Shown piece after piece: positions 2,324-23,202 of a stretch of 64,000 bases of DNA. Source of the DNA: Armatimonadota bacterium (GTDB lineage: Bacteria > Sysuimicrobiota > Sysuimicrobiia > Sysuimicrobiales > Sysuimicrobiaceae); assembly GCA_031460175.1 (NCBI GenBank), contig JAVKGW010000006.1, positions 62,001 to 126,000 of the forward strand. Direction: 5' to 3'. The notes under the pieces were generated by a model, which searched no databases, had not been told where the DNA came from, and worked only from the letters and a program-made list of their open reading frames with translations. Position 1 is the stretch's first letter. Every line of letters begins with the position of its first letter. Made by a program: the position numbers and the translations under genes.

Positions 2324-3378
2324 CCGTCCTTCTGAGCGTGCTGCTCCTCGCGGTCCCCGGGATCTCGCAGACCGCGGAGGACCGATCGGAGGTGGAGCAG
2401 GGCCGCCGGGCCGCCCAGCAGGTGGAGCGGGCCCTGCGGGTGGTGACGGATCCCGCGGTGGCGGGTCGGGTGGAGCGGATCGGGAAGGCGGTGTCGGCTC
2501 AAACAGAGCGGCCGCAGCTTCCCTGGACCTTCCGGGTGGTGGAGCATCGGTTCCCCAATGCGGTGGCCCTGCCGGGCGGATTCGTGTACGTCACGAGCGC
2601 CATGCTGCAGCTCGTGCGCACGGACCACGAGCTCGCGGGCCTGCTGGCCCATGAGGCGGCGCATGTGGCGCGGCGGCATCACCGTCGCATGGCCCAGGAG
2701 GCGCTGCGCACCAACCTCCTCGTGATGCTGGTGGCGGTGCTGGTGCGGGATCCCAGATTGGCTACGGGCGCGCAGCTGTTGGGCGGGGGGATCCTGAGCG
2801 CCTTCTCGCGGGACCTGGAGCGGGAGGCGGATGTGGCCGCGGTCGGGTATGTGCAGCGCACCCCCTGGCATCCCGTGGGCGTGCTTACCCTGCTGGAGCG
2901 GCTTGCTCGGGAGGAGAGTCTATCCGCGAACCCCGATCCCGGGGCCTTCCGCACGCACCCGACCTGGGAGGAACGCATCCGGGCGGTGCAGGAGGAGCTG
3001 GCCCGCCGGGGAATTCCCCTGCATCGCCGGGTCTCCGCGGGATTCCTGCGGGTCACCATCGGGGGGGATGGGTCCGTGGGCGAGGTGATGGTGAACGGGG
3101 AGGTGGTCATGCGTCTTGCGGGCGGGAAGGCGCGGGCGGAGGAGGTGGCAGCCCGGCTGGATCGGGCCTTCAACGAGGATCCTTCTCCCCTGGAGGTGGA
3201 GGCGGTCGGGATCCTGGACGAGTGGTCGGTGCGGATCGGAGGCGTTCCCATCGTGGTGATCACGGACCAGGACGCACGGCTTTTGGACCGGCCCCGACGG
3301 GAGATCGCCCAGGATTACGCCGCGGCCCTCCGGCGGGTGATCACGGAGGACCGGCGGCGCCGGGCTCTGGGAGGGTGA
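2308..3378 (+). CDS. Secreted or membrane-anchored M48 (Ste24/HtpX-like) metalloprotease
   Basis: 356-residue zinc metalloprotease. An N-terminal signal sequence (about residues 1-19, hydrophobic VAVLLSVLLLAVPGIS) indicates export. The zinc site HEAAH is followed by a downstream glutamate in LEREADVAAVGY, the usual third ligand of M48 peptidases. The GTHPTWEER-type ending of the catalytic domain appears as RTHPTWEERI. About 110 residues after it resemble no domain I know. The ATG at 2308 is favoured because it starts directly at the signal peptide and overlaps the tatD end; the open frame extends further upstream without signal-like sequence. The 3' end overlaps the convergent HD-GYP gene by 38 bp. 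A role in envelope protein quality control is an inference. Confidence 0.85.
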   Translation: MLRSVAVLLSVLLLAVPGISQTAEDRSEVEQGRRAAQQVERALRVVTDPAVAGRVERIGKAVSAQTERPQLPWTFRVVEHRFPNAVALPGGFVYVTSAMLQLVRTDHELAGLLAHEAAHVARRHHRRMAQEALRTNLLVMLVAVLVRDPRLATGAQLLGGGILSAFSRDLEREADVAAVGYVQRTPWHPVGVLTLLERLAREESLSANPDPGAFRTHPTWEERIRAVQEELARRGIPLHRRVSAGFLRVTIGGDGSVGEVMVNGEVVMRLAGGKARAEEVAARLDRAFNEDPSPLEVEAVGILDEWSVRIGGVPIVVITDQDARLLDRPRREIAQDYAAALRRVITEDRRRRALGG

Positions 3379-5275
3379 AGGGCTCTTCCTCCATCAAGCG
3401 CAGGAACGCCTCCACCACGGCCGGATCGAACTGCTTCCCCGCCTGCTCCCGGATGTACTGCAGGGCCTTCTCTCTGGACCAGGCGGGCCGGTAGGGACGC
3501 TCGGAGGTGAGGGCGTCGTAGACGTCCACCACCGCGAAGATGCGGGCCGAAAGCGGGATCTCCTCTCCCCGCAGCCCCCGCGGGTATCCGGTGCCATCCC
3601 ACCGCTCGTGGTGAGCGTACGGGATGTCGAGGGCGGGGCGGAGGAATTCGATGCCCGCGAGCCACCGATAGGCGTACACGGGATGCAGACGCATGATCGC
3701 CCACTCCTCTTCCGTGAGGGGGCCGGGCTTGCGCAGGATCTCGTCCGGGACCCCGATCTTGCCGATGTCGTGCAGCAGGGCCCCGCGCCGGATGTGCACG
3801 ATCTCGGATTCCGCAACCCCCATGGCCCGGGCCAGGGCCACCGTGAGCTCCGCCACCCGCTGGGTGTGCCCCTCCGTCTCCCGATCCCGCAGGTCCATGG
3901 CCCGGGACCATCCTTCCAGGGTGGCATCGTAGGCCCTCTGCAGCTCCAGGTTGGCCCGTTGCAGGTTCTCGAGCAGGGTGCCGTTGTCGATGGCCACCGC
4001 GGCCTGGCCTGCCAGGGCTTCCAGGAACTCCCACCACTCGGGATCGTCCGGGAAGTCTTTGCGCGAGAGGGTTTCCAGCACGCCCAGGACCTGGCCTTTG
4101 ATCGTAAGCGGCAGCGCGCAGTAGGCCCGGAACCCTTCCGCCACGAGCCGGGCTTCCCGGCTCCCGGGCACTTCCGAGAGGTTGGGGACGTGCAAGCGCT
4201 CTCGGCCCAGGACCACCCGGCCCACCAGCCCCTCGCCGATCCGCACCCCCTGGGTCACCAGGTCCCGCCGCAGCCCCCGGGCGACCACGGCCCGGAAGGA
4301 AGCGGTACCGGGGTCCAGCAGCAGCACCGCGGCGGCCTCCACGCCGAGGTGGATGGTGAGCTGATCCAGGATCACGTTGAGGGTGATCCGCAGATCAAAG
4401 CTGCCGGTGATGGCGGTGTCCACCAGGCGTAGGGCTTGGAGTCGGTGCACCTGTCGCTCCAGCCGCTCCCGCAGCCGGCGCTCCCGTTCCTCCGCCTCGA
4501 CGAGCGGGGTGACGTCCTCCGCCACGCAGACGAATCGGAAGGTTTGGCCCGTCTCGTCCCAAAGGGCGGAGATGGCCAGCATGACCCACGCGGGACTCCC
4601 ATCCTTCCTCCGCACCTGCACCTCTCCCCGCCAGCCCTTGCCGGATTCCACCGCCTTCCGGATCTCCCGACGCAGCTCGTCCGGGAGGGAGATGAGGAGT
4701 CCGATCTCCTCTACGGGCCTTCCCAGGACCTCTTCCGCCGGAATCCCTGTGACCTCTGTCCATCGCCGGTTCACGTAGGTCACGCGCCGTTCGGGATCCA
4801 TCACCAGGACCAGACTCGATCCCTGCTCCACCGCCTGCCACAGGAGCCGGGCCTGCGCTTCCGCCTGCCGCCGGGCCCGCCGGACCTCCGCCTCCCGCAG
4901 CTCCCGGGCTATGGCCGCGGGGAGCCGGGTGAGGTTGTCTTTCATCACGTAGTCGTTGGCCCCGGCCCGCATCATCTCCACCGCCAGCTCCTCGCCCACG
5001 GTCCCGCTCACCACGAGGAAGGGAAGATCCGGATCGTGCGCCCGCACGATCCGCAGGGCCTCGTGGGCGTTGAAACCGGGCATCCGGTAGTCGCACAGCA
5101 CCACGTCCCAGGCCTCTGCGCGTAAGGCCTCGGCGAGGCTTGCCGCGGAGTCCACCCGGTGCCACCGTACCGTCCATCCGCTGCGCTGGAGGAGCCGCGC
5201 GAGCAGCACCGCATCGTCCTCCACGTCCTCCACGCAGAGGACCCGCAGGAGCTGCGAGGATTGCGCCTCCGACAT
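3341..5275 (-). CDS. REC-PAS-GAF-HD-GYP response regulator (probable c-di-GMP phosphodiesterase)
   Basis: 644-residue cytoplasmic signalling protein. Domains in order: receiver (about 10-130, phosphoacceptor D62 in CDYRMPGF), PAS (about 145-265, ending ICVAEDVT-like as FVCVAEDVT), coiled linker, GAF (about 300-440), and a C-terminal HD-GYP domain (about 460-630). The HD-GYP part has LLHDIGKIGVPD and HHERWDGTGYP, the signature residues of active c-di-GMP hydrolases. It is the last gene of a minus-strand operon behind a histidine kinase and a single-domain regulator (3 nt gap), so its activity is probably set by that kinase. A c-di-GMP riboswitch lies 14 kb away, but any direct link is an inference. 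The intact HD and GYP motifs make catalytic activity likely. Confidence 0.9.
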   Translation of the reverse strand: MSEAQSSQLLRVLCVEDVEDDAVLLARLLQRSGWTVRWHRVDSAASLAEALRAEAWDVVLCDYRMPGFNAHEALRIVRAHDPDLPFLVVSGTVGEELAVEMMRAGANDYVMKDNLTRLPAAIARELREAEVRRARRQAEAQARLLWQAVEQGSSLVLVMDPERRVTYVNRRWTEVTGIPAEEVLGRPVEEIGLLISLPDELRREIRKAVESGKGWRGEVQVRRKDGSPAWVMLAISALWDETGQTFRFVCVAEDVTPLVEAEERERRLRERLERQVHRLQALRLVDTAITGSFDLRITLNVILDQLTIHLGVEAAAVLLLDPGTASFRAVVARGLRRDLVTQGVRIGEGLVGRVVLGRERLHVPNLSEVPGSREARLVAEGFRAYCALPLTIKGQVLGVLETLSRKDFPDDPEWWEFLEALAGQAAVAIDNGTLLENLQRANLELQRAYDATLEGWSRAMDLRDRETEGHTQRVAELTVALARAMGVAESEIVHIRRGALLHDIGKIGVPDEILRKPGPLTEEEWAIMRLHPVYAYRWLAGIEFLRPALDIPYAHHERWDGTGYPRGLRGEEIPLSARIFAVVDVYDALTSERPYRPAWSREKALQYIREQAGKQFDPAVVEAFLRLMEEEPFTLPEPGAAGPP

Positions 5276-7566: not shown

Positions 7567-7642
7567 GCGCCCGTAGCTCAGAGGACAGAGCGTTGGCCTC
7601 CGGAGCCAAAGGTCGCAGGTTCGAATCCTGCCGGGCGCGCCA
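7567..7642 (+). tRNA. tRNA-Arg (anticodon CCG)
   Basis: 76-nt cloverleaf with encoded CCA. The acceptor GCGCCCG (7567-7573) pairs with CGGGCGC (7632-7638), the anticodon stem is TTGGC/GCCAA with loop CTCCGGA (anticodon CCG, reading CGG), and the T arm is GCAGG-TTCGAAT-CCTGC. From base 7588 on, the sequence is duplicated at 14243, because an integrative element has used this gene as its attachment site. The 3' half is therefore element-derived but identical, so the tRNA stays intact. Confidence 0.97.
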
Positions 7643-7711
7643 GCACTTGTACCACAAGGATTCCAGTCACCCTCATCCTCTCTAGACCGGCCCGGAAAGC
7701 CAAGGTTCACC
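7588..7711 (+). repeat. attL: left 124-bp direct repeat
   Basis: Covers the tRNA-Arg from the end of the D arm through CCA plus 69 bp downstream. Identical to 14243-14366. Bases just outside differ at both ends (A7587 against T14242; G7712 against C14367), which sets the limits. Confidence 0.93.
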
Positions 7712-7714
7712 GGG

Positions 7715-8572
7715 TTGAGCGAGGCCTTCCTGCTCACCAAGCGGCTGAGCGGGTGTACGGAGGCCACTCTGGTCACCTACCGGTGGTGGCTGGAGCGGCT
7801 GTGCGCCTTCCTGGGTCCGGAAGAGCCTAGTCCGGCCCGGGTGGTGGAGTTCTTCTCGACCCTGGAGGGCAAGTCGAGCAGTCACCGGCACCAGGCGTAT
7901 CGGACGCTCCGGACCTTCTTCAGGTGGGCGGTCTCGATCGGCGAGATCGTCCAGGACCCGCTCGCCGGCTTCAGGCTCCGGACACCCAAGACCCTGCCGC
8001 GGGTGCCCACGGACGACGAGCTGCGGCAGGTCTTGCGGTGCTGCCCGGACACCTTCGAGGGCCTCCGGAACCGGACCATTATCCTGGTCCTCGCCGACTC
8101 CGGCCTGCGGGCCCAAGAACTCCTGCGCCTGCTGGTCCAGGACTGGAACCCGGCGGAGAGGAGCCTGTTCGTGAGGGCCGGCAAAGGGCAGAAGGATCGG
8201 GTGGTCTTTGTGGGCCCGACCACCGCCCGCTCGCTGCGGGCGTGGCTGGCTACCCACCCGCGGCCGGCACCGGAAGAGCACCTGTTCTGCGACAGGAGAG
8301 GGCGGCCGATCAAGGCCCGCCACCTGGTGCAGATCCTCCACCGCCTCTCGCAGCGGGCAGGGCTACCACGTGAACGGTGGCTCCACCCGCACGCGCTGCG
8401 GCACTACTGCGCCACGGGCCTGCTGCGTCACGGAGCCGACCTCGAGGCGGTGCGGCGGCTGTTGGGCCACTCCACCTTGAACATGGTGCTGAGGTACGCC
8501 CACCTGGTCGGGCGCGACGTGCAGCAGGCCCACCGGAGGGCCGCCCACCTGGAGCGGCTGGACCTACGGTGA
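7715..8572 (+). CDS. int: Tyrosine recombinase/integrase of the element
   Basis: 285-residue XerC/D-like integrase that would catalyse insertion and excision at tRNA-Arg. The N-terminal SAM-like core-binding domain spans about 1-88 (TYRWWLERLCAFL, YRTLRTFFRWA) and the catalytic domain about 95-285. All catalytic residues are present: R132 (SGLRAQE), K157 (GKGQKDR), H226 and R229 (HPHALRH), H252 (LLGHST) and the nucleophile Y261 (LRYAHL). The TTG at 7715 is the only reasonable start; it lies 4 nt past the att repeat and has no clear ribosome-binding site. In the integrated state transcription may come from the tRNA promoter. The stop overlaps the GTG of the next gene (GTGA). Confidence 0.95.
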   Translation: MSEAFLLTKRLSGCTEATLVTYRWWLERLCAFLGPEEPSPARVVEFFSTLEGKSSSHRHQAYRTLRTFFRWAVSIGEIVQDPLAGFRLRTPKTLPRVPTDDELRQVLRCCPDTFEGLRNRTIILVLADSGLRAQELLRLLVQDWNPAERSLFVRAGKGQKDRVVFVGPTTARSLRAWLATHPRPAPEEHLFCDRRGRPIKARHLVQILHRLSQRAGLPRERWLHPHALRHYCATGLLRHGADLEAVRRLLGHSTLNMVLRYAHLVGRDVQQAHRRAAHLERLDLR

Positions 8573-10986: not shown

Positions 10987-11276
10987 CGGCGGACCTCCGC
11001 CCGGGCCACCGCCTCCAGGGCCTGGGCCCAGCCGGTAGTACCCGGCCACCACCGCTTGCCCTCAAGGTGCTCCTGCCACCACCTCCTGCGGCCCGGGTCC
11101 AGCAGGTCCTGGGCGGCAACCTGGTAGAAGGCACCAGCTCGCTCCAGGCACCCAGGGTGCCCGACCAGCCACCTGGCGGGCGGCCGGCGGAGGGCCCGGG
11201 CCGGGTCCACCGCCAGGGTCGCCTCCTCCGGGCAGACTGGGCGGCGACAGACCTCGCAAACCAGGGCGGGCCTCAT
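10983..11276 (-). CDS. Hypothetical Cys-containing element protein (97 aa)
   Basis: ATG at 11276 overlaps the stop of the replication gene (ATGA). The N-terminus LVCEVCRRPVCPEEATL and the later GHPGCLERAG supply four or five Cys/His ligands, suggesting a zinc-binding fold. The C-terminal half is rich in Trp and basic residues (RRRWWQEHLEGKRWWPG). Probably a DNA-associated accessory of the replication protein; unrecognised. Confidence 0.6.
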   Translation of the reverse strand: MRPALVCEVCRRPVCPEEATLAVDPARALRRPPARWLVGHPGCLERAGAFYQVAAQDLLDPGRRRWWQEHLEGKRWWPGTTGWAQALEAVARAEVRR

Positions 11277-13102
11277 AGGAGGCCCTCCTGCCTCGCCGGG
11301 CCGTTCAGCCGGCGCCCGGGCCGCAGGTCCTCGATCCGGGCGTAGGCGAGGCACCCGGAGCACCTGACCCAGCCGGGCCACTCAGGGTCCGGATGCCACC
11401 TGCCACCGCACGTCTGCGGTGGCAGGTCCAGGACCGGGCCGGGTGGTGAGGGCCGGGCAGGGTCTTGAGCAGAGCCCGGGTCTGGGCCGGGCGAGGGTGG
11501 CCCACCCGGTGCCGGGTCGCCCAGGGTCGGGTCGGGCGGCGAGGGCCGGGTGGCCGCCGGTGGGTGGGCAGCCTCCTCGGAGGGTACGGTGTTACGTGTT
11601 ACGCCTGTTACGGTGTTACGGTCACGCCCAGGCCGTAACACCGTAACAGGCGTAACAGGCGTAACAGGTGTAACAGGCGTAACAGGCATAACAGGTACCC
11701 GAGCTCCTTGTTCCTCGCCGGAGGGCCCTTGGGTGATGGCGTACCGCCCATCCGGGCACCTCTGAAGGTACCCGGCTCGGGCCATCCTGGAGAGGCGCAT
11801 GCGGACCGCCTCGGCCCGGATGCCCAGGGCGGCCGCGATCTCGGAGGGCCGCATCGGCCCGCCCACCCGGAGGGTTTCCAGGACCTCTTGTTGCTCTCGG
11901 GTGGCCATGACCTCCTGGGCCGGACCCTCCACCACCCACAGCCCGCCCTCGAAGCGGAGGGCCAGCTCCTGGTCCTCCACGTCTCGCCCCGTGATCGAGA
12001 GGGTCGCCTCCTGCGCGCCACGAGTCCGCCGGAGGACCCACACCGTGTCCGCGGCACCCGTGATGCCCGCGGACCCGCTGACCAGGTCCATTGGGTCATC
12101 GGCGGGTGCCTTCCGGGTGTGGTGGACCACCAGTATGGCCACGCCGTGCCGGCGGGCGAGGTCTGCCAACGGGCCGAGGGTCTCGTAGTCTAGGGCGTAG
12201 GCGTTCGTGCGCGCATCCTGCCGGCCGCGCAGCCGCTGGAGGGTGTCAACGACCACCAGTCTGGCTTCCGGGTGGGCTCGCAGCCAGGCCTCAAGGGCCC
12301 GCAGGCCGCCATCACTCAACGTGGGCCACTCGAAGGCCAGGTGCAGCCGGCTCAGGTCCGCACCGGTGGCGCCTAACTGTTCCAGGCGGCTCCGGATGCG
12401 CCTTGGCGTGTCCTCCAGGGCGATGTACAGTACCTCGCCCGGTTCGCACCTCCACCGGCTCAAGGCCATTCCGCCGGTTGCTACGGCAACCGCGACACCG
12501 AGCGAGGCGTAAGACTTTCCGGCTTTTGGCTTGCCGGCAAAGACCGCAACGCCCTCGGGCAGGACCGACGAAACGACCCACCTGGGCTCCGAGGGCGGGC
12601 AGGCCATCAGATCGGCGGCGGAGGTCGTCGCAGGCCACGGGCCGGCAGCCTCGTGGTCGCGCTCCTCCAGGGCCCGCCTGAGGTCCTCCAGGGCCTCCTG
12701 GGCCCTCCGGTCGCCCGTCTCCAGGTAGTGGGCCACCGCCCTGGCCGCCAGGGCCAACCGGCGCTTTCGAGCCTGGGCCCGCACCTTCTCGAGGAGGACC
12801 TCGGCGCCCGCGGAGGTGGCCACCGAGTTCTGGAGGGCGATGAGGTAGGCGGACCCGCCGACTTCATCGAGCGACTTACCTTCCTCGACCAGGTGAGCCG
12901 CAACCGTGCCGATGTCCGCGGGTACGCCCTGCTCGACTAGGACCCTGATCACCCGGGCGATCTCCTGGTGCTGCGGCGCCCGGAAGTCACCCGGGTCCAG
13001 GTGCTCGGCCAAGGCCCGCTGCCTGGCCGAGTCCTCCAGGAGCAGGAGGCTACCCAGCAACTGGCGCTCAACCTCGAGGACTGCCTCAACCGATCCGGAC
13101 AT
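11273..13102 (-). CDS. Replication protein: DnaB-N domain plus RepA-like AAA ATPase
   Basis: 609 residues. A DnaB-like N-terminal helical domain (about 8-110, VERQLLGSLLL, VGGSAYLIAL) precedes a RepA/RecA-like ATPase (about 175-390) with Walker A GKPKAGKS (190-197) and Walker B LVVVDT (282-287). A winged-helix segment follows (about 405-450, PSEIAAALGIRAEAVRMRLS), then a Val-Thr-Pro repeat (471-487) encoded by 9-nt tandem repeats, a Pro-rich linker and a C-terminal Cys pair (CSGC). Plasmid and phage helicase/primase-loading proteins share this plan, so it probably replicates the excised element. First gene of a six-gene leftward operon. The repeat segment may double as origin DNA. Confidence 0.85.
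   Translation of the reverse strand: MSGSVEAVLEVERQLLGSLLLLEDSARQRALAEHLDPGDFRAPQHQEIARVIRVLVEQGVPADIGTVAAHLVEEGKSLDEVGGSAYLIALQNSVATSAGAEVLLEKVRAQARKRRLALAARAVAHYLETGDRRAQEALEDLRRALEERDHEAAGPWPATTSAADLMACPPSEPRWVVSSVLPEGVAVFAGKPKAGKSYASLGVAVAVATGGMALSRWRCEPGEVLYIALEDTPRRIRSRLEQLGATGADLSRLHLAFEWPTLSDGGLRALEAWLRAHPEARLVVVDTLQRLRGRQDARTNAYALDYETLGPLADLARRHGVAILVVHHTRKAPADDPMDLVSGSAGITGAADTVWVLRRTRGAQEATLSITGRDVEDQELALRFEGGLWVVEGPAQEVMATREQQEVLETLRVGGPMRPSEIAAALGIRAEAVRMRLSRMARAGYLQRCPDGRYAITQGPSGEEQGARVPVMPVTPVTPVTPVTPVTVLRPGRDRNTVTGVTRNTVPSEEAAHPPAATRPSPPDPTLGDPAPGGPPSPGPDPGSAQDPARPSPPGPVLDLPPQTCGGRWHPDPEWPGWVRCSGCLAYARIEDLRPGRRLNGPARQEGLL
11598..11697. repeat. Iteron-like 9-nt repeats and 24-bp inverted repeat inside rep
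   Basis: A perfect 24-bp inverted repeat (11598-11621 and 11633-11656, 11-nt spacer) is built from TGTTACGCC/TGTTACGG-type units. The right arm runs into six tandem 9-nt units TAACAGGCG (11644-11697, third, fifth and sixth units slightly varied). On the minus strand these encode the Val-Thr-Pro repeat. Such iterons plus hairpin inside a rep gene are typical of origins, but coding-repeat expansion alone could also give the tandem part. Confidence 0.7.
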
Positions 13103-14242: not shown

Positions 14243-14366
14243 GAGCGTTGGCCTCCGGAGCCAAAGGTCGCAGGTTCGAATCCTGCCGGGCGCGCCAGCA
14301 CTTGTACCACAAGGATTCCAGTCACCCTCATCCTCTCTAGACCGGCCCGGAAAGCCAAGGTTCACC
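14243..14366 (+). repeat. attR: right 124-bp direct repeat with tRNA-Arg fragment
   Basis: Identical to 7588-7711. It contains the last 55 nt of a tRNA-Arg (14243-14297) without the acceptor 5' strand and D arm, so it is not a functional tRNA. 14367-14603 beyond it is host DNA in which I see no gene. Confidence 0.93.
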
Positions 14367-19730: not shown

Positions 19731-19760
19731 TTGACAGAGAATTCGGAGTCCCTCTAAGCT
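19731..19760 (+). promoter_or_regulatory. Promoter ahead of the c-di-GMP riboswitch
   Basis: TTGACA (19731-19736), 18-nt spacer, TAAGCT (19755-19760). Transcription would begin near 19767, about 10 nt before the riboswitch P1 stem. Confidence 0.65.
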
Positions 19761-19775
19761 CTGAAAAAAGTAAAC

Positions 19776-19866
19776 GAGCCTCCCGAAAGGGCAAACCCGC
19801 AGCAATGCGGGGGCGCAAAGCTGACGGGACCGCGGACGCGGTTGGCTGGGCTGCCGAAGGAGGCGC
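19776..19866 (+). promoter_or_regulatory. Cyclic di-GMP-I (GEMM) riboswitch aptamer
   Basis: Contains the family's invariant pieces in order: AGGGCAAACC, a P2 hairpin CCCGCA-GCAA-TGCGGG with a GNRA tetraloop, GGCGCAAAGC, then P3 and CTGCCGAAGG. P1 closes GCCTCC (19778-19783) with GGAGGC (19859-19864). The GNRA loop docking against P3 is characteristic of class I aptamers. It precedes a terminator and a secreted FG-GAP protein gene, so c-di-GMP probably controls transcription read-through. Ligand-on or ligand-off logic cannot be settled by eye. Confidence 0.88.
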
Positions 19867-19871
19867 GAGGA

Positions 19872-19915
19872 GGCTGGGGAGACTCCGGTGCAAGGATCCC
19901 CGGCCTGTTTTGTTG
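19872..19915 (+). terminator. Riboswitch expression-platform terminator
   Basis: GGCTGGGGA (19872-19880) pairs with TCCCCGGCC (19897-19905) through one G-U pair and is followed by TGTTTTGTTGT. It begins 5-8 nt after the aptamer P1, the normal place for an intrinsic terminator controlled by a riboswitch. 19916-19990 then holds only leader and the ribosome-binding site. Confidence 0.75.
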
Positions 19916-19990
19916 TGCCCTCCTGTGGACCCTACCGTCCGACCAGAACGGTTCCCCGCAGCGAAAAACATCTCGGGACGAGGTGAGGCC

Positions 19991-21697
19991 ATGCGACCAG
20001 TACGGGTAATCTGTGCTGCGGTTCTGGCTGCATTTCTGGGGGTACAGGGGATTCCCCCTGTTTTCTCTCAGAATGTCGGGAGTATTCAATTTCAGGACGT
20101 GACGGATCAGGTTTTCCCCTATCCGGTCCGACCTCTTTACGGTGAGAGCCACGGGCAATCCTGGGGCTTCATTGCGGTGGGGGACTACGACGGGGACGGC
20201 TGGGACGACCTCTACATCAATGAGATGAGCATGGTCCACACCGTAGAGCACCAGAACATTCACGGGCGGCCTCAATCCGGATATCTCCTGCGGAATACGG
20301 GAGGCCGATTCGTGGACGAAACCTACAAATTGCCGGTTATTGATGAGGACACGGAGCACCGGCATGCGGCGGTGTGGTGCGATTTCGACAACGACGGGGA
20401 TGAGGATTTGCTTTTGGGCACCGGGATGGACGACGAATTCCCCTTGGGACATCCGGAGCGCATGACCGGAAATCTGGACGTGTGGCTCCGGAACGACGGC
20501 ACCCACTTCACCGACGTGAGCCGGCAGGTGACCGTGGAAGGGTACGACACCCGGCACAGCAAGGTGTTCCACGGGTACACCTGTGCGGATGTAGACGGGA
20601 ACGGGTGGCCCGACATTCTCCTCCAGAACAAAAAGGCCCCGGAGGTGTACGGGAGCGGGGGGACTCCCGTCTTCCGTTTGTACCTGAATCTGGGGGGCTT
20701 TCGTTATCGGGAGGCCGCGGCGGAACGGGGCTTCAAGGACACGGAATACCCCACAAGCAACATTGATCCCTGGGGCTTGGGTTGCTATGACTTCAACGGG
20801 GTCCGAGGCATGGACTGCCGTTCTGCAGGGGGGAATCTGGGCCGCTGGATCCTCAATAAAGGCGGCGGGTTCTTCGATGTCCACACGGGAGTATACCGGC
20901 CTATTGCGGACCTCAACGCCTACAGCAACGACCTCGCCTGGGCCGACTACAACGGGGACGGGCTCATTGACCATTCGGATGCCGGATTGACACAGATCGT
21001 GCGGATCTTCGTCAACAACGGGTCCACGGTCCACAATGATGGGATGGCCGATTCCACTAAGGCAGCGGCTTCGAATCGGGTGCGCCTGCGCAGCACTGCT
21101 GCCTTGGATGCCGACAACGATGGGGATGCGGATCTCTTCGTCACGGTCGAAGGTTCGGGTCCGCAGACGCCGGATGGATGGACGACCAAGGCTCCGGATC
21201 TGTTCTTCCGCAACGACAATATGACATTCGTGGAAATGGCCAGGCAGGTCGGACTAGACGGCGGAATTTGCGTGGGTAAGCGGGCGGATTCTCGGCCCGC
21301 GGATCACTGCGCGGGAGGTGGCGGGGCTGCGGTCGTCGACTACGACCGGGATGGCCGGCTGGATCTTGTGGTTTCCTACACGCCCTGGTTCAAGCCTGCC
21401 GGGGGTGTGGAGCGGGTGCGGGTGTACCGCAACGTGACCCAGAATCCCGGGAACTGGATCGGGGTGATCGTACAGGGCAGGAGATCTTTGGGGAGTCGTG
21501 TTACGGTTGAGGCGTGCGGGAAAACCCACGTCCGGCAAGTGGTGAACGACACGCATCATCTGGCCCAGAACACGCGGGCGATCCACGTGGGGTTGGGAGG
21601 GTGCACGAACCGACCTTATGTGGTCATCCAGTGGTCGGACGGGGCTGTGACCCGGACCTACCTTAGCCGGAACCGGTACCACCTGGTGAGGCGGTGA
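19991..21697 (+). CDS. Secreted FG-GAP/VCBS repeat protein with ASPIC/UnbV domain
   Basis: 568 residues with a signal peptide (about 1-27, CAAVLAAFLGVQGIPPVFS). At least six DxDxDG-type calcium-binding repeats (VGDYDGDGWDDLYIN, CDFDNDGDEDLLLG, ADVDGNGWPDILLQ, ADYNGDGLIDHSD, LDADNDGDADLFV, VDYDRDGRLDLVV) indicate an extracellular beta-propeller. An ASPIC/UnbV domain follows (about 500-565, NWIGVIVQGR, IQWSDGAV). ATG chosen with GAGGTGAGG upstream. Controlled by a c-di-GMP-I riboswitch. Its A/T content looks higher than that of neighbouring genes, a possible sign of transfer. Adhesion or matrix role is inferred. Confidence 0.88.
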   Translation: MRPVRVICAAVLAAFLGVQGIPPVFSQNVGSIQFQDVTDQVFPYPVRPLYGESHGQSWGFIAVGDYDGDGWDDLYINEMSMVHTVEHQNIHGRPQSGYLLRNTGGRFVDETYKLPVIDEDTEHRHAAVWCDFDNDGDEDLLLGTGMDDEFPLGHPERMTGNLDVWLRNDGTHFTDVSRQVTVEGYDTRHSKVFHGYTCADVDGNGWPDILLQNKKAPEVYGSGGTPVFRLYLNLGGFRYREAAAERGFKDTEYPTSNIDPWGLGCYDFNGVRGMDCRSAGGNLGRWILNKGGGFFDVHTGVYRPIADLNAYSNDLAWADYNGDGLIDHSDAGLTQIVRIFVNNGSTVHNDGMADSTKAAASNRVRLRSTAALDADNDGDADLFVTVEGSGPQTPDGWTTKAPDLFFRNDNMTFVEMARQVGLDGGICVGKRADSRPADHCAGGGGAAVVDYDRDGRLDLVVSYTPWFKPAGGVERVRVYRNVTQNPGNWIGVIVQGRRSLGSRVTVEACGKTHVRQVVNDTHHLAQNTRAIHVGLGGCTNRPYVVIQWSDGAVTRTYLSRNRYHLVRR

Positions 21698-21774: not shown

Positions 21775-23202
21775 ATGGGGGCGACAGCACCTGTGGAGAG
21801 TCTGCAGACGCTCCTGGACCGGGTGCCGAGTCTGGTCGATCACCTGTACCGGAATCCCAAGGGGGCGCTGCGGGCCATCTTTCAGCTGTTTCCGCCCGCG
21901 GTCCTGCCGCCGGAATTCACCAACTGGCGGGACGAACAGCGGGCCCGGCGGGAGTCCGTGGCCCTCCTGGACCAATCGTTTCACATGAGCAACCTGTCCC
22001 TGAGGGGGCCGGATGCCCTGCGGCTGCTGGAAAGTCTGGCCATCAACAGTTTCCGGAACTTCGGCCCGAACCGGGCAAAGCAGTTCGTGGCGTGCTCCCC
22101 GGAAGGATACGTGATCGGGGACAACATCCTCTACGGGCTGGAAGAGGATTCGGCGGTGCTGGTCGGCTCCGAGGTCGTCCAGAACTGGGTGACCTACCAC
22201 GCGGAGACCGGCGGGTACCGGGTTCGGGTGGAGCGGGACCCCGCATGGTCCGTGAACCCCACCGGACGGCGGACGGAGTACCGGTTCCAGGTGGAGGGTC
22301 CGAAGGCCCTGGCCCTGCTGGAGAAGGCCACGGGAGGGCCGCTGCCGGAGGTGAAGTTCTTCCACTGGACGTGGCTTGTCATCGCGGGGCGGAGGGTACG
22401 GGCGTTGCGGCACAGTATGGCAGGAGTCCCGGGCATGGAGCTCTCGGGCCCGTGGGAGGACCGAGAGGTGGTGCGGACTGCCCTCGTGGAGGCTGGCAGG
22501 GAGTTCGGCCTCCGGGAGGTGGGCTCCCTCGCGTACCTCTCCAGCGGCGGGCTGGAGTCCGGGTGGGTCCCCAATCCACTTCCCGCCATCTACACCAGCC
22601 CTGACCTGCGCGCCTACCGGGAGTGGCTTCCGGCCACCGGTCAGGAGGCCAGGGGATCTCTGGGGGGGAGTTTCTACTCGCCCCGCATCGAGGACTACTA
22701 CCTGACCCCCTGGGAGTTGGGATTCGAGCACATTCTCCGGTTCGATCACGACTTCGTGGGGCGGCTCGCCCTGGAGGAGCGGGCCCGGGAGCGGCATCGG
22801 AGGAAGGTGACCCTCGTCTGGCACCCGGAGGACACCGCCCAGGTCTTCGGTTCTCTCCTGCGCCCGGGGCCGATGGCGAAGTACCTGGATCTCCCCTGGC
22901 TTCACTACGCCACCTGGCAATACGACAGGGTCCTGAGCCCGCGGGGGGAGCCGGTGGGTCTCTCCCTGTATGCTGGCTACACCTCAAACGAGCGCGCGGT
23001 GGTGGCTCTGGCGGTGGTCGACGCGGATTACAGCCAGCCCGGGACGGAAGTGGTCCTCGTGTGGGGCGAGGACGGCGGAGGTGCTCGCAGCGCGGCGTGG
23101 GTGGAACCGCACGTCCCCGTGGAGATCCGGGCCACGGTGGCTCCGGTCCCCATCAGCCAGGCGGCCCGGCAGTACCGGGCCGCCATGCGGTCCGGACGCT
23201 AG
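21775..23202 (+). CDS. GcvT-fold tetrahydrofolate-dependent enzyme, LigM/DmdA-like
   Basis: 475 residues, aminomethyltransferase (GcvT) fold. The N-terminal WRDEQRARRESVALLDQSFH and VEGPKALALLEKAT, the central GMELSGPWEDREVV and the C-terminal WELGFEHILRFDHDF-VGRLAL fit GcvT relatives such as THF-dependent aromatic O-demethylases (LigM/DesA) and dimethylsulfoniopropionate demethylase. The length suits LigM better than GcvT (about 365 residues). ATG 21775 follows GGAGGAGGGAGAA; a TCCTCC 21 nt upstream could pair with this ribosome-binding site. No glycine-cleavage partner is nearby, so demethylation is more likely than glycine cleavage; the substrate is unknown. Confidence 0.75.
   Translation: MGATAPVESLQTLLDRVPSLVDHLYRNPKGALRAIFQLFPPAVLPPEFTNWRDEQRARRESVALLDQSFHMSNLSLRGPDALRLLESLAINSFRNFGPNRAKQFVACSPEGYVIGDNILYGLEEDSAVLVGSEVVQNWVTYHAETGGYRVRVERDPAWSVNPTGRRTEYRFQVEGPKALALLEKATGGPLPEVKFFHWTWLVIAGRRVRALRHSMAGVPGMELSGPWEDREVVRTALVEAGREFGLREVGSLAYLSSGGLESGWVPNPLPAIYTSPDLRAYREWLPATGQEARGSLGGSFYSPRIEDYYLTPWELGFEHILRFDHDFVGRLALEERARERHRRKVTLVWHPEDTAQVFGSLLRPGPMAKYLDLPWLHYATWQYDRVLSPRGEPVGLSLYAGYTSNERAVVALAVVDADYSQPGTEVVLVWGEDGGGARSAAWVEPHVPVEIRATVAPVPISQAARQYRAAMRSGR

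Follow-up and report, generated by a model that had tools for sequence, protein, structure and literature searches.

Results

A c-di-GMP-I riboswitch locus in front of a secreted propeller gene

The locus lies on the forward strand of a 64,000-nt stretch of an Armatimonadota contig (hereafter the window). It consists of a promoter-like region, a c-di-GMP-I aptamer, an intrinsic terminator, a gene for a CRTAC1-like protein with FG-GAP and UnbV/ASPIC domains and, behind it, a gene for a GcvT-fold O-demethylase (Table 1). The original prediction had placed here a c-di-GMP-I riboswitch with a terminator ahead of a secreted FG-GAP/ASPIC gene, and all three elements were recovered. The covariance-model scan that it had proposed as a check was positive for Rfam c-di-GMP-I (RF01051; 57.6 bits, with the cut-off at 35), the 10-bp terminator stem is followed by the tail GTTTTGTT and has a counterpart at the same place in the sister species G036, and the ORF, preceded by the Shine-Dalgarno-like GAGGTGAGG, has a signal-peptide-like start and domain scores over the cut-offs. 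The terminator arms are 19871-19880 and 19897-19906; a simple terminator scanner missed the hairpin because its loop limit was 8 nt whereas this loop has 16. The motif GGACCCTACC follows this aptamer and four of those in genus g3; it was considered as a shared element and dismissed as chance, since it is absent in G036.

The upstream region had been described as a clear promoter, which held for one of its two boxes. The -35 box is perfect, and TTGACA also stands upstream of aptamers in G036, in G037-G040 and at the first aptamer of G035:C4. However, the candidate -10 box matches TATAAT at only three of six positions, and a promoter scanner called no promoter at this leader and did not accept TAAGCT.

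Table 1. Features of the riboswitch locus and the HD-GYP gene, in window coordinates.
Feature	Position	Strand	Basis or remark
HD_5 domain of the HD-GYP gene	3416-3901 in ORF 3341-5275	-	domain match
-35 box TTGACA, perfect	19731-19736	+	sequence
Candidate -10 box TAAGCT, weak, 18-nt spacer	19755-19760	+	sequence
5' strand AGCCUCC	19777-19783	+	19778-19783 pairs with 19859-19864 (P1); all 7 nt can pair with 19869-19875
c-di-GMP-I aptamer, type II	19780-19858	+	RF01051, 57.6 bits; covariation in the order
GGAGGC copy one, P1 3' strand	19859-19864	+	pairing
GGAGGCU copy two, putative antiterminator 3' strand	19869-19875	+	19871-19875 also forms the terminator base
Intrinsic terminator hairpin, 10 bp, 16-nt loop	19871-19906	+	one at the same place in G036
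Terminator U-rich tail GTTTTGTT	19907-19914	+	sequence
Shine-Dalgarno-like GAGGTGAGG	19980-19988	+	sequence
Secreted FG-GAP / UnbV-ASPIC beta-propeller protein, 568 aa, CRTAC1-like	19991-21697	+	domains, predicted fold
GcvT-fold O-demethylase, DesA/LigM kind	21775-23202	+	77 nt behind the FG-GAP gene

Elsewhere in the window, a perfect 124-nt direct repeat (7588-7711 and 14243-14366) spans the 3' part of a tRNA-Arg(CCG) gene. The segment of about 6.65 kb between the two copies encodes a DnaB/AAA_25 protein (11273-13102, -) besides a phage-type integrase (7715-8572, +); it is a mobile element integrated at the tRNA gene.

The FG-GAP/ASPIC protein and its downstream neighbour

The ORF starts 132 nt behind the aptamer and encodes both defining parts of an FG-GAP/ASPIC protein, with scores above the cut-offs for FG-GAP_3 (84.5 bits), FG-GAP (58.2) and a C-terminal UnbV_ASPIC domain (37.2); it is the only gene of the genome with UnbV/ASPIC. 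A crude hydropathy test found the N-terminus hydrophobic and signal-peptide-like. A search of the PDB by sequence gave no match. The predicted structure (mean pLDDT 74.6, pTM 0.83) has as its best solved match murine CRTAC1 (9etn; E 1.3e-26, TM 0.67/0.69, 18% identity), with aldos-2-ulose dehydratase second and integrin alpha chains after it. In its predicted fold the protein matches the CRTAC1 family, which combines an FG-GAP propeller with UnbV/ASPIC, although it is bacterial. Its DxDxDG-type loops make calcium binding plausible.

The downstream product is nearest to the syringate/vanillate O-demethylases DesA (561.6 bits) and LigM (515.1 bits), with both scores under the respective cut-offs of 800 and 580. 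Visual inspection of the 77 nt between the two genes revealed no terminator, and G036 has the same order of FG-GAP and O-demethylase genes. A shared transcript is therefore possible, and the O-demethylase gene may belong to the FG-GAP transcript. Six further near-full-length paralogues of the O-demethylase, 54-63% identical, are encoded in the same genome, a set that suggests the use of methoxylated aromatics. O-demethylase paralogues were noted in G000 and G036.

The aptamer is well formed and of type II

The RF01051 match is full-length (E 1.2e-8 in 64 kb) and is the only one in the 2.49-Mb genome. Type II of c-di-GMP-I is described as having a GYRA loop and no tetraloop receptor (PMC11218506, partial text), and the aptamer fits this description, with GCAA as its P2 loop and a P3 that has no tetraloop-receptor internal loop. 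The GCAA loop would also be in place for type I, but the receptor is missing. The claim that all GEMM-I signatures are present, including a GNRA tetraloop in P2, is accordingly right for the loop and the core letters and wrong for the P3 receptor. The core contains GGGC, CGCAAAG and GCCGAA, and the letters at the ligand contacts, which we take to be G20, A47 and C92 in Vc2 numbering, are the canonical ones.

Type II prevails among the relatives. Of the aptamers studied from the 43 genomes of the order, 116 of 117 could be parsed; 97 have a GYRA loop in P2 and four have GAAA. A receptor-like internal loop was flagged by folding in three of the four GAAA aptamers and in nine of the 97 GYRA aptamers. 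The receptor of the fourth GAAA aptamer (G006:C343) is visible by eye, and the single unparsed aptamer has, also by eye, GAAA and a receptor.

Covariation supports the structure. Across 49 distinct aptamers of the order, standard pairs occupy 97.0% of 931 pair cells against 78.7% after shuffling, a count that is favoured because the structure used was the RNAalifold consensus of that very alignment, but the contrast with the shuffles is large nonetheless. Two-sided changes occur at 15 of 19 pairs and support both P2 and P3, and sliding the partners by 1-3 columns reduces pairing to at most 49.1%. The 49 rows were picked from 65 non-redundant sequences among the 117, mostly by dropping receptor-bearing or long ones, and G036 was added. 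The aptamer in front of the FG-GAP/ASPIC gene is real and well formed.

We considered whether it might recognise another ligand, either 3',3'-cGAMP, as in the G20A form of GEMM-I that has been studied bound to cGAMP (PMC6274999, partial text), or whatever the c-di-GMP-I-GGC variant (RF03167) binds. The GGC variant resembles our RNA in its receptor-less P3 and similar core, and its model indeed ranks first by E-value in short searches (53.5 bits, E 4.2e-12). However, 53.5 bits fall short of its gathering score of 59, whereas RF01051 exceeds its own cut-off by 22 bits. In addition, the consensus G of the GGC model is an A in our RNA, which has a G before GC, and the same A after CGC recurs in all 116 parsed aptamers of the 117. 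As for cGAMP, the position that we take to be G20 is G and not A. Another ligand is therefore very improbable.

The genome has the enzymes for c-di-GMP turnover, encoding both makers (GGDEF) and degraders (HD-GYP). Ten GGDEF matches, two of which are adjoining pieces, amount to about nine domains, and six HD-GYP-type domains were found. One of these six is the HD-GYP phosphodiesterase that had been reported in the window and is borne out by its HD_5 domain; it lies about 15 kb away and has no special link to the switch.

Mutually exclusive pairings define the expression platform

The hexamer GGAGGC is duplicated behind the aptamer. Copy one closes P1 with GCCUCC (19778-19783), while copy two, extended to GGAGGCU, can pair with AGCCUCC to give seven base pairs, one more than P1, and overlaps the terminator 5' arm by five of its ten bases. 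P1 (ending at 19864) and the terminator (starting at 19871) do not overlap, whereas the antiterminator excludes both. In equilibrium ensembles of the growing transcript, P1 (0.77) gives way to the antiterminator (0.98) and then to the terminator (0.998). These pairings and ensembles reproduce the layout of Cd1, the Clostridioides difficile OFF switch in front of flagellar genes, in which aptamer and terminator coexist and both compete with an antiterminator (PMC9262584, partial text). Our leader differs from Cd1 in that its antiterminator draws on a duplicate of the P1 3' strand, as well as in sequence, host and target.

The same arrangement is found in G036, where the aptamer scores 56.8 bits, the terminator is at the same place, the duplicated GGAGGC is kept and the FG-GAP protein is a 78% identical orthologue. 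The seventh antiterminator pair is A-U in our leader and G-C in G036, a compensatory change that is a single event in two species. The ensembles of G036 give P1 about 0.04 at most without ligand, the antiterminator 0.79 and the terminator 0.99, so that ligand binding must compete there. When linkers were shuffled by dinucleotides, a seven-pair complement arose in 548 of 5000 shuffles for our leader and in 289 of 5000 for G036; such a complement alone is not rare, and the support that shuffling lends to the antiterminator is weak. The mutual exclusion of these pairings, like the aptamer, the terminator, the gene and their conservation in the sister species, is a computational observation.

Across the order, terminator-like sites follow 65 of the 117 aptamers, compared with 51 of 575 shuffles. 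In 64 of these 65 a P1 was found, and the terminator is clear of P1 in 55 and overlaps it in nine.

An OFF switch is the predicted mode of action

Since P1 and the terminator do not overlap, the ligand-bound form permits termination, and the coexistence of aptamer and terminator, as in Cd1, predicts an OFF response of the gene to c-di-GMP. In the ligand-free RNA, the P1 5' strand would exchange copy one (19859-19864) for copy two (19869-19875); the antiterminator so formed would remove the base of the terminator and let the polymerase read through to the gene. With c-di-GMP bound, P1 would stay closed with copy one, copy two would be left free, the terminator would form and transcription would end ahead of the FG-GAP/ASPIC gene. 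As the full-length RNA favours the terminator with or without ligand, the decision must be kinetic. We therefore propose, with a probability of roughly three in four, that a Cd1-like type II c-di-GMP-I OFF switch controls the secreted FG-GAP/ASPIC gene, with the O-demethylase gene perhaps included. Ligand binding, the direction of the switch and co-transcription of the next gene are inferred.

The opposite direction, in which c-di-GMP bound by the same aptamer blocks the terminator, has precedents in ON types of the same superfamily such as pilM (PMC9262584, partial text) and in the nine of 64 terminators of the order that overlap P1. In our leader, however, P1 and the terminator can both form, and what excludes the terminator excludes P1 as well, which makes an ON switch unlikely. 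It is just as unlikely that the leader is a relic, either worn or locked, with aptamer and terminator left but little effect of c-di-GMP on expression. The Bc1 c-di-GMP-I riboswitch of Bacillus thuringiensis behaves in this way, terminating transcription but hardly responding in vivo (PMC11218506, partial text), and the genome has a single aptamer copy where others in the order have up to 13. Against a relic, the core, P1, the duplicated GGAGGC and the terminator have all persisted in both our genome and G036, at 78% identity between the FG-GAP proteins.

c-di-GMP-I switches across the order

Matches to RF01051 occur in all 43 genomes, 1 to 13 in each and 224 in sum. The 117 that we studied are the better-scoring ones and all of those from the same family as our genome. 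No gene was called on the same strand behind 24 of them, in some cases owing to a contig end; the remaining 93 lead to 85 distinct first genes. The tally of these genes is rough because the gene caller is crude (it misplaced the start of our own ORF at 453 instead of 132 nt behind the aptamer, which we corrected by hand). Signal-peptide-like starts were seen in 47 of the 85, and the domains include sigma-70 (16), CAP (9), HD-GYP (4) and type II/IV secretion ATPases (2). FG-GAP with ASPIC was found in two, both in our genus. With aptamers in all 43 genomes and often in front of secreted proteins, the arrangement at our locus is an ordinary one: a secreted protein under a c-di-GMP-I switch is usual in the order, and the FG-GAP target is confined to our genus.

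Indeed, a full-length FG-GAP orthologue is present in two of the 43 genomes, both of this genus, and any match in four. UnbV/ASPIC was detected in five of the 43; three of these, outside our genus, contain five such genes in total, none near any of their 22 aptamers, the nearest on the same contig being about 114 kb away. The outside relatives of the protein reach 22-39% identity in the segments that match best. A general pairing of aptamer and FG-GAP gene was rejected, as no convincing aptamer turned up at the 80 loci retrieved from among 93 outside relatives, some of which have a short upstream flank because of contig ends; the best score, 17.4 bits (L042), is on the wrong strand and is not confirmed by Rfam. 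Nor do the aptamers of genera g2 and g3 lie at the same place as ours: their loci gave no blastn match to the window, and the tblastx rows were scattered short pieces that were set aside. A plasmid search gave no match.

Several other arrangements were seen in the order. Behind the sigma-70 first genes (16 of 85) there is often a small gene whose product begins near LPIYPIRT and which we take to be MerR-like, and c-di-GMP may work via a sigma factor in this order. Each of the four g3 genomes (G037-G040) has one aptamer with terminators that faces a convergent gene at its 3' end, with no same-strand gene called behind the aptamer (L133, 1001-1081, +; L134, L135 and L137, about 5001-5082, -). 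These orphans are possibly antisense-acting switches, of a kind that has already been predicted widely for c-di-GMP riboswitches (PMC9943018, partial text). Aptamers also occur in tandem or in clusters, with two or three of them inside 0.1-1.3 kb, at L129 (G035:C4, 148056, 148340 and 148487), L140, L141, L142, L143, L144 and L147. G026, G027 and G028 each have two neighbouring copies with a terminator-like hairpin overlapping P1, which is ON-like and unlike most.

Conclusion

The locus joins known parts. Type II members of RF01051 resemble it in core, P2/P3 layout, receptor-less GYRA loop and terminator platform (PMC11218506, partial text), and the aptamer itself does not differ from them; the FG-GAP/ASPIC target does. 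We found no precedent for such a target of a c-di-GMP switch in the literature searched, which includes a minority of subscription papers. The target gene is thus new to the c-di-GMP-I list, while the mechanism is already known.

It is a tentative and rather doubtful thought that the genus's lone c-di-GMP-I switch shuts off the secreted propeller and, via read-through, the O-demethylase as one unit of extracellular binding and O-demethylation. If true, the second messenger c-di-GMP would be linked to the use of methoxylated compounds, a link that was not met in the literature searched. The expression platform, in which one duplicated hexamer would choose between antiterminator and terminator, is small, well formed and easily tested. 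With it, a CRTAC1-like secreted propeller joins the targets of c-di-GMP-I switches, in an order that depends as a whole (43 of 43 genomes) on such switches, among which type II prevails.
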